Of a stretch of DNA of 56,849 nt, positions 33,764-41,471 are shown piece after piece (positions within the stretch are counted from its first letter, which is position 1; each line of letters begins with the position of its first letter). The DNA comes from Sphaerobacter sp. (GTDB lineage Bacteria > Chloroflexota > Chloroflexia > Thermomicrobiales > Thermomicrobiaceae), in contig NZ_JADGHZ010000003.1 in the NCBI RefSeq assembly GCF_019683595.1, forward strand, positions 1 to 56,849, read 5' to 3'. Made by a program: the position numbers and the translations under genes. The notes beneath the pieces were generated by a model. It saw only the letters and a list, made by a program, of their open reading frames with translations, was not told where the DNA came from and made no database searches.

Positions 33764-34681
33764 GTGCTGGCATATGCCATCCGCCGCATCTTGATCGCGA
33801 TTCCCACCCTGATCGGGATTACCCTGATTACCTTCCTGCTCGTCCGGGTCACGGGAGACCCCGCGCGCTTCGTGCTGGGGGACACCGCACCGCCGAGCGC
33901 GATCGAGGCGTTCCGCGCCGAGCACGGGCTAGACAAGCCGCTCCCCGTCCAGTTCGTGAACTACTTGGCCGGAGTTGCGCGCGGCGACCTCGGCACCTCA
34001 CTGCGTTACCAACAGCCAGTCCTCACCCTCTTTGCAGAGCGCCTGCCGGCCACCATCCAACTCGGGCTGTCGGCCTACATCCTCGCGCTTCTCGTCGGCG
34101 TCAGCGTTGGGGTCTACTCAGCGCTGCGCGCTGGATCCCCGCTCGACAAGGTGATCCGGGTCTCGGTGCTGTTTGGGCAAGCCGTGCCCGGCTTTTATCT
34201 CGGCTTGGTCTTGATCATCGTGGTGGCCGTAGGGCTCGGCTGGTTGCCCACTGGTGGGCGCGGTGGGCTATCTCATCTCGTTCTTCCCACCATCACACTG
34301 GCCTCCTACCTCGTGGCCTTCTCCGTCCGATTCACGCGCTCGGTGATGTTAGACGTGCTCCACCACGACTACATCCGCACCGCGCGGGCGAAGGGGGTCG
34401 CCGAGGGGGCCGTTATCCGCCGGCACGCACTGCGCAACGCACTGATCCCACTGGTGACCGTCCTGGCCCTGCAGTCGAGTGTGGTCTTCTCGGGCGCCGT
34501 GGTTACTGAGACGGTTTTCTCCTGGCCCGGAATTGGGCGCTTCGCCTTGCAGGCTATCTCCACGCGCGACTTTCCGGTCATCCAGGGGACCGTGTTGATC
34601 CTCACCGCCTTTGTCGTCCTCGTGAATCTGATCGTTGATCTCGCCTACGCGTACCTGGATCCGCGGATTCGGTACTCGTAG
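33764..34681 (+). CDS. ABC transporter permease (dipeptide/oligopeptide DppB type)
   Basis: MLAYAIRRILIAIPTLIGITLITFLLVRVTGDPARFVLGD...RTARAKGVAEGAVIRRHALRNALIPLVTVLALQ. Confidence 0.95.
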   Translation: MLAYAIRRILIAIPTLIGITLITFLLVRVTGDPARFVLGDTAPPSAIEAFRAEHGLDKPLPVQFVNYLAGVARGDLGTSLRYQQPVLTLFAERLPATIQLGLSAYILALLVGVSVGVYSALRAGSPLDKVIRVSVLFGQAVPGFYLGLVLIIVVAVGLGWLPTGGRGGLSHLVLPTITLASYLVAFSVRFTRSVMLDVLHHDYIRTARAKGVAEGAVIRRHALRNALIPLVTVLALQSSVVFSGAVVTETVFSWPGIGRFALQAISTRDFPVIQGTVLILTAFVVLVNLIVDLAYAYLDPRIRYS

Positions 34682-34701
34682 CCGGTAGGGGAAGAGGGAC
34701 G

Positions 34702-35604
34702 ATGTCCGCTCTCTCGGAGTCGTTGCGTGCCGGGCGGGAGCCGGCGGTGCAGAGTGTCTGGGCTCGCCGATTCGGCGTGTTCTGGCGGAGTTGGGAGACC
34801 CGAATCAGTACCCTCTTGCTGCTGGTCATGATCGGGGTCGCCCTTGTGCCCACCAGTGTCTGGCCTGACACCGCGTTCGACAGCAATCTGACCCTGCGCC
34901 ACCGCGAGCCGGGGCTACTGATGGGCACGACCGACTACTTGTTCGGCGCCGACGCGCTCGGGCGGGATGTCTTCTTCCGCATCCTCATGGGGACGAAGTT
35001 GACGCTCCTGATTGCTGGGCTAGCAACTCTGTTCGCCACGATCATCGGCAGTGCAGCCGGACTCTGCGCGGCCTACTTCCGGGGCTGGGTCGATATGGTC
35101 GTCTCTCGGCTCGTCGACATCATGCTTGCCTTCCCGATCCTGCTCCTGGTGCTGGCGCTCGTGGCTGCCCTGGGACAGAGCGTCAGCAGCGTGATCATCG
35201 TATTGGCGCTGTCGGGGTGGGCCGGCTACGCCCGTGTCATCCGCAGTGCCACGTTGAGCCTGGTTGAGCGAGAGTTCGTCGAGGCGGCGCGCTGCACTGG
35301 CGCACGCTCCGGCCACATCCTGCTGCGCCACCTGCTGCCCAACGTGGCCTCGCCGATCCTGGTGCTCTCTACGCTTAACCTCGCCTCGTTCATCCTCACC
35401 GAGTCGTCGGTCAGCTTCCTCGGGCTGGGCCCGCAGCCACCCGCCGTGACCTGGGGCGCGTTGATCGGGGACGGCCGCAACTACATGTACGACGCCTGGT
35501 GGGCCACGCTCTTCCCCGGCCTCGCCATCATCCTGACCGTACTGGCCTTCAACCTGGTCGGCGATGCGATGCGAGACGCATTCGATCCCCACACCCGCCA
35601 GTGA
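34702..35604 (+). CDS. ABC transporter permease (DppC type)
   Basis: TDYLFGADALGRDVFFRILMGTKLTLLIAGLATL...REFVEAARCTGARSGHILLRHLLPNVASPILV. Confidence 0.95.
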   Translation: MSALSESLRAGREPAVQSVWARRFGVFWRSWETRISTLLLLVMIGVALVPTSVWPDTAFDSNLTLRHREPGLLMGTTDYLFGADALGRDVFFRILMGTKLTLLIAGLATLFATIIGSAAGLCAAYFRGWVDMVVSRLVDIMLAFPILLLVLALVAALGQSVSSVIIVLALSGWAGYARVIRSATLSLVEREFVEAARCTGARSGHILLRHLLPNVASPILVLSTLNLASFILTESSVSFLGLGPQPPAVTWGALIGDGRNYMYDAWWATLFPGLAIILTVLAFNLVGDAMRDAFDPHTRQ

Positions 35605-35753
35605 GGTAGGCACGACCAAGCATCGCGGCGGCATGCCGGAGGTCATGTGAAGGAGGTCGAACGGGCGGCGCATCGTTGTTGACGGAGAGTTTCGCGGACA
35701 GTGCGTGACGCTGGCCAACTGCCCGGCACGGGCGCTTGGAGAAAGAGGAGACG

Positions 35754-37451
35754 ATGGGACAACACTGGAAGTGGCTACTCACAGGGATGTCGCGTCGCCG
35801 GTTCGTCGGCGGCGCATTGGCGGCGACGCTGCTGGCTGCCTGCGGCGGCGGCGAGAGCACGCCGACCGCGACCGGTGAGGGATCAGGCGGATCAGGCGGG
35901 GAGACTGCCCCCACGGCCACCGCTGCCGCTCCGACGGTGCCGGCGAACATCGACACCAGTGGGTCAACGAACGGCGGGCTCGTGCCGCCCAAGGCGCCTG
36001 AGTCGAACTTGCAGAGCACGAAGCAGCTCACCGTCGGGATGAGCCTTGACCCAACGACCCTGAATCCGGTCCTGACGACTACGGCCGCCTACCAGAGCAT
36101 CTATGCGCAGATCCTTGAGCAATTGGTGATCTTCGGCCCCGACGGGGGATCAGTGAGCCCGTGGCTGGCCGAGTCGTTCGAGTGGGTCGACGACACCACG
36201 CTCGAACTGAGACTGCGTCAGGGCATCAGCTTCACCAACGGCGAGCCGTTCGACGCCGAATCGGTCAAGTTCTCGATCGATGCTTTCGCTGCAGCCAAGG
36301 CGTACGCGTTCATGATCCCGCCGGACGTATACAAGGAGACCGAGGTCGTCGACGAGTACACTGCCCGCGTTCACTTGAATCGGCCTTACGCCCCGTTCAT
36401 CGGCTTCCTCGCGCGCGGGGGCGCGGCGTTGCCGCCGAAGTATTACGCCGAGGTCGGCGAGGACGCCTTTGGCCAGCAGCCGATCGGCACCGGCCCCTTC
36501 GTCCTGGCCGAATGGGTGAAGGACGATCACATCACGCTCAAGCGCAACGACGACTACTGGAACGGGCCGCATCCGGTGGCGACGGTCACCTACCGGGTCA
36601 TTCCGGAAGACACGGCCCGGCTGGCCGCCCTGGAGACCGGGGAAATCGACCTCGCCATGCTCCTGCCGGTTTCCGCGCTGAACCGCCTCAACGCGAGCGA
36701 TACGGTCGACGCGGTCACCCACCCGGGCCTGCGCAAGTTCGCGCTGCACTTCGATACCAAGACCGGGCCGGAGGCGCTCAAGGACAAGCGGGTCCGGATC
36801 GCGCTCAACCTGGCGGTCGACAAGCAGGCCATCGTAGACGGCATCTTCCAGGGCGCGGCCGACCCGATGGAGGGCCAATGGGAGGCGCGGCAGGAGTTCG
36901 GCTTCAACCCGAACATCTCGATGTTCCCCTACGATGTCGAGCAGGCCAAGGCGCTGCTGGCCGAAGCCGGCTATGCCGACGGCTTCGACCTGCAGGTGAC
37001 CTACACGGTCGGCCGCTATCCCCAGGACAAGGAGCTGGGCGAGATCGTCTGCGACTACATCAAGCAGGTCGGGGTGAACGTAATCCAGCGACCGCTGGAG
37101 TATGGCACTTTCACGTCCTTGCGTCAGGAGGGCACGCTCGGCTCGCACCAGTGGGGTCTCCTGCTCCCTCCGGAGCCCTATTTCAACTACGGCAACTTCG
37201 TGCAAGGCTCGGCCTATGAGACGCACGACCTGGGCGATGAGTACAGCCGGCTGGTCGACGAGGCGTCCCGTCGGACGGACCTCGATGAGCAGCTCGCGCT
37301 GTACCACCAGGCCGCGCAGATCATGCACGACGACCCGCCGATGCTCTTCCTGGTTATCCCGCAGGATATTTACGGCGTCAGCAAGCGAGTCAGGGGGTTC
37401 CAGCCGCGGACGGACCAGGTGCTCTGGCTCTTCACCGTCGATGTCGACTAG
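35754..37451 (+). CDS. ABC transporter substrate-binding protein, family 5, Tat-like lipoprotein
   Basis: MGQHWKWLLTGMSRRRFVGGALAATLLAACGGGES (RR motif plus lipobox); LTVGMSLDPTTLNPVLTTTAAYQSIYAQILEQL; GTGPFVLAEWVKDDHITLKRNDDYWNG. Confidence 0.95.
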   Translation: MGQHWKWLLTGMSRRRFVGGALAATLLAACGGGESTPTATGEGSGGSGGETAPTATAAAPTVPANIDTSGSTNGGLVPPKAPESNLQSTKQLTVGMSLDPTTLNPVLTTTAAYQSIYAQILEQLVIFGPDGGSVSPWLAESFEWVDDTTLELRLRQGISFTNGEPFDAESVKFSIDAFAAAKAYAFMIPPDVYKETEVVDEYTARVHLNRPYAPFIGFLARGGAALPPKYYAEVGEDAFGQQPIGTGPFVLAEWVKDDHITLKRNDDYWNGPHPVATVTYRVIPEDTARLAALETGEIDLAMLLPVSALNRLNASDTVDAVTHPGLRKFALHFDTKTGPEALKDKRVRIALNLAVDKQAIVDGIFQGAADPMEGQWEARQEFGFNPNISMFPYDVEQAKALLAEAGYADGFDLQVTYTVGRYPQDKELGEIVCDYIKQVGVNVIQRPLEYGTFTSLRQEGTLGSHQWGLLLPPEPYFNYGNFVQGSAYETHDLGDEYSRLVDEASRRTDLDEQLALYHQAAQIMHDDPPMLFLVIPQDIYGVSKRVRGFQPRTDQVLWLFTVDVD

Positions 37452-37531
37452 TCGTCGGTGAGTCGTTCCCGTACGAGTCCGGCAGCGAGGTGCTGCCGGA
37501 CGCACGGTGGTCACGAAGGGATGAACCCCGC

Positions 37532-38542
37532 ATGAGTACGATCTCCGAGGAGGCAAGGGCGCTCCATGCGGACGCCATCGTCATCGACGGCTGCTCCTTC
37601 TTCAGCCAGGGGTGGCACGAGCGGCTGGCGATCGCCGGGGTCACCGCGCTGCAGATGACGGTGCCCTGGCCGGGAGATGACTTCCGGCGAGCCGTCCGCC
37701 GGTACCAACACTACTATCGCCTCGTCAACGAGGATGCCCGGCTCGGCTTGGTGACCAGTACCGAGGACATCCGGCAGTTCAAACGCGAGGGCCGTGTCGG
37801 CTTTATCCTCGGTTCCCAAGACGCCGATATTCTGGAAACGGATCCCGGGCTGGTGGAGGTCTACCACCGGCTCGGTGTCCGGGTGATTCAGATCTCGTAC
37901 AACGAGCGGAACCTCCTGGCGGACGGCTGCTTGGAGCCGACCAACGCCGGCCTGTCGCGCTTCGGCAAGGCGGTCATCCGCGAGATGAACCGCGTCGGCA
38001 TCCAGGTCGACCTCTCTCATGTCGGTGAGCGTAGCAGCTTGGAGGCGATGGACATCTCCACCAAGCCGTGCATCTTCTCCCACTCCAACCCGAAGGCGCG
38101 CGCCGATAATCCGCGCAATATCACCGATGAACAGATCCGCCGCTGCGCCGAGACCGGAGGGGTCATTGGCCTCTCTCCCTGGCCGCCGATCTGCTGGACC
38201 GGGGGACCAAACCCGCCGTCCCTTGACGACCTGATCGGCCACATCGAGTACGTGGTCGATCTGGTCGGGATCGACCACGTCGCCATTGGCACTGACTCCG
38301 AGGCGACACCCGGCGCCTACCCCAAGGAGCTGCGCACGAGCCTGGGAGCCACGTATGGCCCAGTCACAGGCCGTTTCCAGGAAACGCACCCTGGCGTGCG
38401 GCACACGGCCGGCTTCGAATCCATGGAGGGGTTCCCCAACCTGACCGCGGCGCTGCTGGAACGTGGCTGGCGCCCAGAGGATGTGCGCAAACTGCTGGGA
38501 GAGAACCTGCTTCGGGTCTACCGTGAGTCGTGGGGAGCGTAA
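37532..38542 (+). CDS. Peptidase M19-family-like protein, paralog 1 (canonical HxD absent)
   Basis: LHADAIVIDGCSFFSQGW..., VGFILGSQDAD, LADGCLEPTNAGLSRFG, VDLSHVGERSSLEA, FSHSNPKARADNPRNITDEQI, VGIDHVAIGTD. Confidence 0.92.
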   Translation: MSTISEEARALHADAIVIDGCSFFSQGWHERLAIAGVTALQMTVPWPGDDFRRAVRRYQHYYRLVNEDARLGLVTSTEDIRQFKREGRVGFILGSQDADILETDPGLVEVYHRLGVRVIQISYNERNLLADGCLEPTNAGLSRFGKAVIREMNRVGIQVDLSHVGERSSLEAMDISTKPCIFSHSNPKARADNPRNITDEQIRRCAETGGVIGLSPWPPICWTGGPNPPSLDDLIGHIEYVVDLVGIDHVAIGTDSEATPGAYPKELRTSLGATYGPVTGRFQETHPGVRHTAGFESMEGFPNLTAALLERGWRPEDVRKLLGENLLRVYRESWGA

Positions 38543-38546
38543 TGTC

Positions 38547-39587
38547 ATGAACAAGACGGAGACACTGAGTCCGGAGCAGGCGGCCCGCCTCCACAAAGAC
38601 GCGATCGTCATCGATGGTCTGAGCTTCTACTACGACGGCCCGACGCCGCGCCTGAACCCCGAGCTGATCACCGCTACCAACGTGACCGTGGCCGAGACCT
38701 ACAACGACTTTGGTGCGGCGGTGGAGGAGATCCTGACGGTGCGGGCGGCCCTGGCTCGAGATCCAGGTGCTCGCCTGGTCGAGCGCGCGGCCGACATCGA
38801 GCAGGCCAAGCAGGACGGTGTGGTTGGCATCATCTTTGGCCTGCAAGCCAGCTTGCCAATCGGCACCGACCTGTCCCGGATCGGCAAGCTGTACGACCTG
38901 GGGGTTCGGATCATTCAGCTCACCTACAACGATCGCACCTGGACCGGGGACGGCTGCCTGGAGCCGGTCGACGGTGGCCTCAGCCGTTTTGGGCGTGAGT
39001 TCATTGAAGAGCTGGCCCGCGTCGGCGTCGCACTCGACCTCAGCCATGTCGGACGACGTACGAGTCTGGAGGCGATCGCGGCATCTCCGAAGCCGCCGAT
39101 GTTTAGCCACGCCAACCCGGCCGCGTTAACCGACAACCCGCGTAACCTCACTGACGAGCAGATCAAAGCCATCGGGGAGCGCGGCGGCCTGATTGGCTGC
39201 TGCACCTGGGCCCCGCTGTGCTATAAGAACCGGGCTGGGGTTCAGCCGACCGTCGATGACTTCCTCGACCACGTCGACTATGTCGTCGACCTGATCGGCA
39301 TCGACCACGTCGGCATCGCGACCGACTCTGCGTGCACCGCCAACACCGCTTGGGTGGCACAACACAGCCTCGAGTTCAACACTGCCTTCCCGGAGATTGC
39401 CTCGGGTTACTACGCGCACTTCAGTGATCGGACGGGGATCACCCAGCCAGTCGGGGTCGAGGGCGGTATTGCCGACCTTTCGCCGATCACGCAAGGGCTG
39501 GCCCGGCGGGGCTACCGTGAGGAGGATATCCGCAAGGTGATCGGGGGGAACTTCCTTCGCCACCTGCGTGAGGTCTGGGGCAGCTAA
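38547..39587 (+). CDS. Peptidase M19-family-like protein, paralog 2 (canonical HxD absent)
   Basis: LHKDAIVIDGLSFYYDGP..., VGIIFGLQASL, TGDGCLEPVDGGLSRFG, LDLSHVGRRTSLEA, FSHANPAALTDNPRNLTDEQI, IGIDHVGIATD. Confidence 0.92.
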   Translation: MNKTETLSPEQAARLHKDAIVIDGLSFYYDGPTPRLNPELITATNVTVAETYNDFGAAVEEILTVRAALARDPGARLVERAADIEQAKQDGVVGIIFGLQASLPIGTDLSRIGKLYDLGVRIIQLTYNDRTWTGDGCLEPVDGGLSRFGREFIEELARVGVALDLSHVGRRTSLEAIAASPKPPMFSHANPAALTDNPRNLTDEQIKAIGERGGLIGCCTWAPLCYKNRAGVQPTVDDFLDHVDYVVDLIGIDHVGIATDSACTANTAWVAQHSLEFNTAFPEIASGYYAHFSDRTGITQPVGVEGGIADLSPITQGLARRGYREEDIRKVIGGNFLRHLREVWGS

Positions 39588-39609
39588 GCGGGATCGGAAG
39601 GAGCAAGCC

Positions 39610-40650
39610 GTGACGACGACCGACAATAAGGGATTCCATCCCACGATCGACGAGGATCTGCCCTACATCTTCATCGACTCCTGTATGCAGGCCTGGCCGG
39701 ACGCCGACTACGCCAACGCCCACCGGCATGGTGTGACCGCCTACGCGGTGACCGCCTGGGATCCGCATGCGACGGTCGAGCAGGCGCTCGAAGGCGCCAT
39801 GTTCTGGCACCTCATCGCTCGCAAGTACCCCAACACGCTGGTGGTCGAGCGGGTGGATGACATCCGGCGAGCCAAGCGTGAGGGCAAGGCCGCCTTCATC
39901 ATGGCAGCCCAGGGGGGCGACTTCATCGAGAACAAGCTGCACCGCATCGAGGCGTTCTACCGCCTCGGCCTGCGGATGCTGATTCCGGCCTATAACCGCA
40001 CGAACGCCATCTGCGACGGCTGCCTCGACCGGACCGACAGCGGCCTCACCCGCTTCGGTCAACTGGTCGTCGATGAGTGCAACCGGGTGGGCGTGCTGCT
40101 CGACTGCTCACACATCGGGCGCCGAGCCAGTCTCGAGATTATCGACCGGAGCAGCCAGCCAGTCGTCTTCAGTCACTCCAACGTCAAGGCGATTGTGGAC
40201 AACCCACGCAACATCGACGACGAGCAGATCAAGTCCTGCGCGGCGAAGGGCGGCGTGATCGGCGTCGCCCCCTGGGGCCCACTGGTGCTCAAGGAGGGTA
40301 GCACCACGTGGCCAACGGTTGACGACCTCGTTGAGCACATCGAGTACATCGTGCAGTTGACCGGCTCGATCGACCATGTCGGCATCGGCACCGACATGAG
40401 CCTCGGCACCTACCCCTATCACGAGCATGACCCGTGGGGCGAGCCGGACTACCCGAACTACACTGCCCGCTACGACGAGCACATCACGTCTGACGTTCGC
40501 TCGCGGCTGCGTGGGATCGACGGGTTCAGCACCTACCCTGAAGTCCGCACCCTTATCGACCGCCTACTCGCGCGGGGTTACAGCGATGCCGACATCCGCA
40601 AGCTCCTCGGTGAGAACTACCTGCGCGTCTTCGAGCAGGTTTGGCGGTAG
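39610..40650 (+). CDS. Peptidase M19-family-like protein, paralog 3 (canonical HxD absent)
   Basis: LPYIFIDSCMQAWPDAD..., AAFIMAAQGGD, ICDGCLDRTDSGLTRFG, LDCSHIGRRASLEI, FSHSNVKAIVDNPRNIDDEQI, SIDHVGIGTD. GTG start inferred. Confidence 0.9.
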   Translation: MTTTDNKGFHPTIDEDLPYIFIDSCMQAWPDADYANAHRHGVTAYAVTAWDPHATVEQALEGAMFWHLIARKYPNTLVVERVDDIRRAKREGKAAFIMAAQGGDFIENKLHRIEAFYRLGLRMLIPAYNRTNAICDGCLDRTDSGLTRFGQLVVDECNRVGVLLDCSHIGRRASLEIIDRSSQPVVFSHSNVKAIVDNPRNIDDEQIKSCAAKGGVIGVAPWGPLVLKEGSTTWPTVDDLVEHIEYIVQLTGSIDHVGIGTDMSLGTYPYHEHDPWGEPDYPNYTARYDEHITSDVRSRLRGIDGFSTYPEVRTLIDRLLARGYSDADIRKLLGENYLRVFEQVWR

Positions 40651-40673
40651 TCAGTCCTACGCAACCCCCTACA

Positions 40674-40698
40674 GAGCGGACCCAACTTGGGTCCGCTC
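40674..40698 (+). terminator. Hairpin after the third M19 paralog
   Basis: GAGCGGACCCAA-c-TTGGGTCCGCTC 12-bp perfect stem. Confidence 0.7.
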
Positions 40699-40877
40699 CG
40701 CGTCCTGCTGAGGAATGCGCAGCGACGGATCAGCAGGTGTGCAACCACAGCCGAACTGCGGTAAGCTCTCGCGCAGGGAGAGCAGGTCGACGAACAGTGC
40801 CCCTATACCCGGTGTGCGCCTGGGATCCTTGGGTGCATCGCCGAGTACAAGTGTCCACCTAGTCAGGATGACGTCTC

Positions 40878-41471
40878 ATGCCGAAACGCAGTGAGCCGGA
40901 CGGCCCGGCGCCGCTCCGGATCGGTACGACCTTGAAAGCGCTGCGGGCCGCGCGCGGGTATACCTTGCAGCAGGTTGCCGCGGGTACGGGCCTCTCAGTC
41001 TCCTTTCTCAGCCTCCTCGAAAATGACAAGTCGGATGTCTCGCTGGCACGGCTCCAACGGATCGCCCACTTCTACGGCATTAGTGTCAGCGACATCATCG
41101 GGAACGAGCGCCGGGAGGTCCGCCGCGTCGTACGACTGGCGGAGGCGCCGCAACTCTTCAGCCCGAACGAGGGGGTCGTGGTCCGGGGGCTCGTTGTGGA
41201 CCCGGAGCGGGGTATAGATCCCTGGTACAGCACGATGGAACCCGGCGCCGGCTATCGTGAGCCTGTCGTCCACGCCGGGGAGGAGTTCCGGCACGTCCTC
41301 GAGGGCCACATCCGCGTCTGGCTGGGTGATGAGGTCTATGACCTCTACCCGGGGGATACGATCTACCACCCCAGCGATATCCCTCACGTCTACGCGAACG
41401 TCGGCACGACTCGATCCGTCGTGATCGGGTGTTCCACACGGATTCCCATGAGCCAGCGAATACGACGATAG
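40878..41471 (+). CDS. XRE-family HTH regulator with C-terminal cupin domain
   Basis: GTTLKALRAARGYTLQQVAAGTGLSVSFLSLLENDKSDVSLARLQRIAHFYGISVSDII...VHAGEEFRHVLEGHIRVWLGDEVYDLYPGDTIYHPSDIPHVYANVG. Confidence 0.95.
   Translation: MPKRSEPDGPAPLRIGTTLKALRAARGYTLQQVAAGTGLSVSFLSLLENDKSDVSLARLQRIAHFYGISVSDIIGNERREVRRVVRLAEAPQLFSPNEGVVVRGLVVDPERGIDPWYSTMEPGAGYREPVVHAGEEFRHVLEGHIRVWLGDEVYDLYPGDTIYHPSDIPHVYANVGTTRSVVIGCSTRIPMSQRIRR

Follow-up and report, generated by a model that had tools for sequence, protein, structure and literature searches.

Are three proteins that carry the name dipeptidase really dipeptidases if half of the metal site of their family is missing? This question is raised by three consecutive genes in a contig of Sphaerobacter sp. 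that we analyzed as one stretch of 56,849 nucleotides (hereafter, the window), part of a 3.89-Mb draft genome. Human DPEP1 and the classical dipeptidases of peptidase family M19 hold two metals, and the roles of their residues are established: in DPEP1 numbering, His20, Asp22, and the bridging Glu125 form the alpha-metal half of the site, His198 and His219 belong to the second half, Arg230 lies on the substrate side, and Asp288 is catalytic. This numbering was carried over by aligning to the two classical M19 proteins that this genome encodes. We refer to M19 proteins with Gln in place of Glu125 as Q-type and to those with Glu as E-type. A preliminary description of the locus had proposed three tandem M19 paralogs, and three full-length open reading frames are indeed found there:

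37532-38542, + strand: A, Q-type M19 protein of 336 aa, start codon ATG at 37532 (Pfam; AlphaFold2 model)
38547-39587, + strand: B, Q-type M19 protein of 346 aa, start codon ATG at 38547 (Pfam)
39610-40650, + strand: C, Q-type M19 protein of 346 aa, start codon GTG at 39610 (Pfam)

The genes are separated by only 4 bp (A-B) and 22 bp (B-C), and thus they likely form a single transcription unit; an AAGGAG-like site precedes the GTG start codon of C. As read from the sequence, none of the products has a signal-like N-terminus. By profile score and length, all three belong to M19 as a homology family: they score 246 to 268 bits against the Pfam model PF01244 (Peptidase_M19), whose cut-off is 26 bits. 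However, the match starts only at profile position 38-42 (and runs to about 319), so the strand that should carry the HxD motif is not recognized by the profile. A search of NCBIfam assigned no family to A, B, or C. The segments that correspond to the metal site, located by motif search and alignment, are the following:

37583-37603, + strand: IDGCSFF in A, replacing xDGHxD
37811-37828, + strand: GSQDAD in A, with Gln96 at the place of the bridging Glu125
37922-37939, + strand: DGCLEP in A, with the clade-typical Cys133
38009-38092, + strand: DLSH (His163, equivalent to His198) to FSHSNP (His184, equivalent to His219), kept in A
38108-38125, + strand: NPRNIT in A, with Arg195 (equivalent to Arg230) kept
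38285-38302, + strand: IGTDSE in A, with Asp255 (equivalent to Asp288) kept
38610-38630, + strand: IDGLSFY in B, replacing xDGHxD
38838-38855, + strand: GLQASL in B, with Gln at the place of the bridging Glu
39673-39693, + strand: IDSCMQA in C, replacing xDGHxD
39904-39921, + strand: AAQGGD in C, with Gln at the place of the bridging Glu

The place of His20-x-Asp22 reads C-x-F in A, L-x-F in B, and C-x-Q in C, and the bridging Glu125 is Gln in all three proteins. His198 and His219, as well as Arg230 and Asp288, are present in each of them, and the motifs D(L/C)SH, FSH(S/A)N, NPRN, and I(G/A)TD occur once per protein. The preliminary description had claimed both the loss (HxD gone, Glu changed to Gln, with its quoted motifs each found once) and the survival of the second-half residues, and both claims hold. 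It had also pointed to the replacement of the His of the LTHNC motif by Tyr. The Tyr is there, at the place of DPEP1 His152 (SYNERN in A, TYNDRT in B, AYNRTN in C), but it is less telling than it seemed, because the 25 E-type proteins in our data set have Trp (17), His (6), or Tyr (2) at this position. With one half of the zinc site gone and the other kept, the label "dipeptidase" on A, B, and C, and on the branch to which they belong, is probably wrong.

To place these substitutions in the family, M19 proteins were collected from a GTDB species-genome scan, from 41 relatives, and from 399 genomes belonging to the phylum; the matches listed include 134 Q-type proteins (among them the protein of crystal structure 2I5G) and 25 E-type proteins. 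In 42 Q-type representatives, less than 70% identical to each other, Gln125 is present without exception, as is Glu125 in all 25 E-type proteins, and His198, His219, Arg230, and Asp288 are each found in 42 of 42. Position 152 is Tyr in 40 representatives and Phe in two, and Gly at position 323 of A is universal in the Q-type set (42/42 versus 7/25 in the E-type). In a later alignment, the place of His20 across the Q-type was Leu, Cys, Val, Gln, Thr, Ser, or Ala, and that of Asp22 was variable. Residues invariant in 51 diverse Q-type members (A numbering) are Gln96, Asp160, His163, His184, Arg195, Asp199, and Asp255, together with Gly, Pro, and Asn residues; the acidic and His residues among them are the ones also kept in the classical set. 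Even when the columns of His20, Asp22, Glu125, and His152 were left out of the IQ-TREE trees, the Q-type proteins, including three nested E-type rows, fell on one side of a branch with support 100/99. A, B, and C lie inside this clade and share its whole combination: no HxD, Gln125, Tyr/Phe152, and the four kept residues. Thus, the missing HxD and the Glu-to-Gln exchange do define a clade, as the preliminary description had suggested checking, and the recurrence of the same combination in all 42 representatives shows that the substitutions in A, B, and C are not due to chance. We regard it as established that there is a widespread M19 branch from which the alpha-metal half was removed and in which the other half was fixed, and that A, B, and C belong to it.

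On the one hand, three gene copies with catalytic residues missing might be taken for decaying duplicates. On the other hand, the reading frames are full-length, all clade-invariant residues are present in each of A, B, and C, and the proteins fall into separate lineages of deep origin whose relatives extend to other phyla, which makes decay scarcely credible. The earlier view that the substitutions mark a distinct, maintained site is borne out by the clade, by its conservation, and by the trees. The three nested exceptions (L157:5842-6843, L162:8402-9421, and L246:5935-6930) combine HxG or HxC with Glu and Tyr; this group could be a step on the way to the loss of the metal site or could have regained part of it. 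Since His and Glu come and go together in these proteins, the pattern fits both residues serving one metal.

The fold is that of M19. An AlphaFold2 model of A, built from 51 clade members, has a mean pLDDT of 94.2 and shows the M19 TIM barrel. Its top Foldseek match is 2i5g (TM 0.88, 36% identity in the structural alignment), followed by classical M19 dipeptidases at TM 0.77-0.83. 2I5G is also the nearest solved structure by sequence (E values of 1.5e-57 for A, 1.5e-56 for B, and 7.7e-45 for C), and it bears the Q-type substitutions: HxD is missing, Gln replaces Glu, and the place of His152 holds Tyr. It is an "amidohydrolase" from Pseudomonas aeruginosa, which we take to be PA5396; a literature search on PA5396 or 2I5G returned nothing. 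DPEP1 and bacterial and fungal M19 dipeptidases (1ITQ, 3ID7, and GliJ, 5LWZ) share with A the fold (TM about 0.83) and His198, His219, Arg230, and Asp288, but they have His20, Asp22, and Glu125 and are only 23-25% identical to it. The M19 relative human DPEP3 (6VGO), which is reported to lack dipeptidase activity, matches the model only distantly. A, B, and C are therefore M19 proteins by fold and descent that lack two defining features of the binuclear dipeptidases. Could other residues have taken over the roles of HxD and Glu, so that these are ordinary binuclear enzymes after all? The proteins do have the M19 fold and half of the M19 metal site, and the transporter context described below resembles that of classical members; however, the clade has no conserved replacement His, Asp, or Glu, and the places of His20 and Asp22 vary freely. 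The family alignment contains no equivalent of HxD elsewhere, and the model of A superposes over its full length on M19 structures. We consider this explanation very improbable.

What, then, might these proteins do? In the explanation that we put forward, to which we give an even chance, A, B, and C would be cytosolic enzymes without a binuclear center, and their substrates would be imported compounds of a peptide-like or N-substituted amino-acid type. The Q-type branch would have dismantled the alpha-metal half (no His20, no Asp22, Glu125 exchanged for Gln) and retained His198 and His219 of the second half, along with Arg230 on the substrate side and Asp288, the catalytic residue. As for the chemistry, Asp288 could serve as the general base, assisted by His198 and His219, with Arg230 holding a carboxylate, in a site that would be either metal-free or occupied by one metal bound to both histidines. 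The amidohydrolase superfamily has precedents with one metal or none, namely LigI, NagA, and D-aminoacylase, although these lie outside family M19; 4i6k, a possible LigI relative, is a weak fold match to the model of A (TM 0.43).

The single-metal form of this explanation amounts to an alternative of its own, a mononuclear beta-site metallohydrolase in which His198 and His219 bind the metal and Gln125 or Cys133 (A numbering) is the third ligand; NagA and D-aminoacylase are models for such a mode of working. Both beta-site histidines are invariant, and Cys133 is found in 36 of 42 Q-type representatives versus 2 of 25 E-type proteins. Yet it is missing from the remaining 6 representatives, Gln is an unusual metal ligand, and the complete exchange of Glu for Gln suggests that a charge is unwanted there. 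We hold the mononuclear form to be possible but not favored. The literature searched contained no measurement of activity, substrate, or metal for a Q-type protein.

Part of the clade sits in operons for N-methyl-amine demethylation (dgcAB, soxBDAG, solA). The sub-branch into which 2I5G falls (support 100/99) has in Beta- and Gammaproteobacteria the order M19 gene, DUF5943, DgcA (NADH:flavin oxidoreductase type), DgcB (Fe-S), and ETF genes. This agrees with the order pepD-hp-dgcAB-fixAB given for P. aeruginosa and Vibrio natriegens in one report (PMC12093977), where "PepD" has the same position and family as the Q-type protein of dgc operons; its genomic partners differ from those of the window trio. 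The M19 gene is induced by root exudates along with dgcAB (PMC8079746), and the RoxR regulon lists the "dipeptidase" PP_0308 with dgcAB (PMC10963909). In Azospirillum (L237:5375-6981), the operon for a tetrameric sarcosine oxidase (soxBDAG) has its soxG gene overlapping a Q-type gene by 4 bp, and in Methylobacterium a Q-type gene occurs with DUF5943 and solA. Other members of the 2I5G sub-branch come after an FAD oxidoreductase gene, lie between aldehyde dehydrogenase and BCCT carrier genes, or, in Chloroflexota, adjoin N-methyltryptophan-oxidase-like genes. At plasmid loci, flavin-oxidase neighbors were found for 7 of 11 Q-type versus 0 of 7 classical genes (Fisher p 0.013), but these loci were hand-picked and are phylogenetically related, so the linkage is suggestive only. 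The preliminary description had mentioned a link to dimethylglycine/betaine genes in pseudomonads and rhizobia. For pseudomonads it is correct, and it extends to other Beta- and Gammaproteobacteria and, with other demethylases, to plasmids of Azospirillum and Methylobacterium; the branch with this betaine context is not the one that contains the window proteins.

Two further kinds of neighbor were seen. At L140:8159-13627, a Q-type gene is followed by glutamine amidotransferase, GXGXG, glutamate-synthase-like, and type III glutamine synthetase genes, a row that resembles N-methylglutamate synthesis; we dropped such neighbors as a Q-type-specific feature because a classical M19 gene (in L258) has them too. 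A protein of about 560-585 aa with no Pfam match recurs beside Q-type genes of marine Gamma- and Alphaproteobacteria (L064:5594-7351, L231, L233, L234), at some loci with BCCT and aldehyde dehydrogenase genes.

The operon contexts raise the alternative that Q-type proteins are non-catalytic, metal-free binding or regulatory subunits, acting either as small-molecule sensors or alongside flavin demethylases or the transporter as their partners. Three metal ligands are lost, many members adjoin flavin amine oxidase genes, one of them overlapping (soxBDAG-M19; also M19-DUF5943-dgcAB), and co-induction with such genes has been reported (PMC8079746). Still, conservation of His198, His219, Arg230, and Asp288 in every member of so varied a clade is not what one would expect of a protein that only binds, and there is no oxidase partner within the window; we therefore think this role unlikely. 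A bolder version of the enzymatic explanation, in which the Q-type would be a metal-independent class on the M19 fold that catalyzes an undescribed reaction in the catabolism of N-methyl-amines or N-substituted amino acids and the trio would provide three specificities for one importer, is a doubtful though slightly better prospect. Many Q-type proteins, also those encoded in operons for the oxidation of dimethylglycine and sarcosine, are called dipeptidases in public records. Should the binuclear center truly be absent, a conserved part of an important osmolyte pathway would bear a wrong name and lack an assigned role, and the fold would be a natural case of a metalloenzyme giving up one metal and keeping the rest of its site. 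The branch is large, old, and little studied, with a crystal structure for one member (2I5G).

In the window itself, the dgc-type arrangement is absent: there are no DUF5943, dgcA, dgcB, or ETF genes (no DUF5943 match was found in the host genome, but control genomes gave none either). Where 2I5G belongs to a dimethylglycine demethylase sub-branch, A/B and C belong to other sub-branches and have an ABC importer instead:

33764-34681, + strand: ABC transporter permease, DppB/NikB type (Pfam BPD_transp_1; NCBIfam matches all below cut-off)
34702-35604, + strand: ABC transporter permease, DppC/NikC type (Pfam BPD_transp_1)
35736-37451, + strand: lipoprotein-like solute-binding protein, family 5 (Pfam SBP_bac_5)
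40675-40697, no strand: perfect 23-bp inverted repeat AGCGGACCCAA-C-TTGGGTCCGCT, after C (sequence)
40878-41471, + strand: XRE helix-turn-helix and cupin regulator (Pfam; PuuR-like, below the cut-off of the PuuR model)

In the proposed explanation, this peptide-type importer (33764-37451) would take up small compounds, either peptide-like or of the N-substituted amino-acid type. Their processing would fall to A, B, and C, which would be expressed together, perhaps under control of the XRE-cupin regulator, and would differ from each other in specificity. No ATPase genes lie near the importer, and the oligo_HPY (oligopeptide-type) ATPases of the genome are found only on two other contigs (C52 and C190); the importer would probably borrow ATPases encoded elsewhere in the genome. 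The inverted repeat, which has no T run and lies between C and the regulator gene, is possibly the end of the M19 transcript.

Family-5 binding proteins are abundant (44 in the host genome and 34 in that of one relative, G034), and classical dipeptidases likewise adjoin them; thus, linkage to a transporter cannot by itself separate Q-type from classical function, and we dropped it as sole functional evidence. The lineage of the importer is more informative. At E<=1e-100, the window binding protein had only two matches among 61 relative genomes (at most 22 candidates scored in each), both in G034 (58% and 42% identity) and both adjoining Q-type M19 genes; the chance of drawing both Q-type-linked binding proteins among the 34 is about 0.002. 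One of these gene rows contains an M28 peptidase and the other has an S9 peptidase beside it. These gene rows connect the importer lineage with Q-type proteins and suggest a peptide-like cargo. A Rhizobium plasmid has a similar layout with an FAD oxidoreductase and an XRE-type regulator, the latter aligning along its entire length with the XRE-cupin protein of the window at 27% identity.

How did the trio arise? The proteins are only 43, 41, and 38% identical in pairs. Among the matches listed, A and B cluster with two distant proteins, L006 and L226 (support 99/93), whereas C clusters with orthologs from relatives and a Rhodospirillales protein (support 100/100). The orthologs in relatives are the nearest to C, at about 70% identity, and many relatives have the lineage of C alone. 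Recent local triplication is ruled out by the 38-43% identity within the trio and these closer orthologs of C. The gene row thus unites old lineages, and the suggestion that a triplicated operon implies hetero-oligomers or a sequential pathway finds no support, A and B being one lineage and C another. The unit at 33764-41471 (permeases, binding protein, three M19 genes, and XRE-cupin gene) has a G+C content of 64-66%, lower than that of the window (68%) and of two neighboring genes (68-71%), and no Q-type genes were seen in the two congeners; this hints that the unit may have been acquired as one block. Tandem M19 genes also occur at L166 (G394:C16), where the match is open only through a TAG codon.
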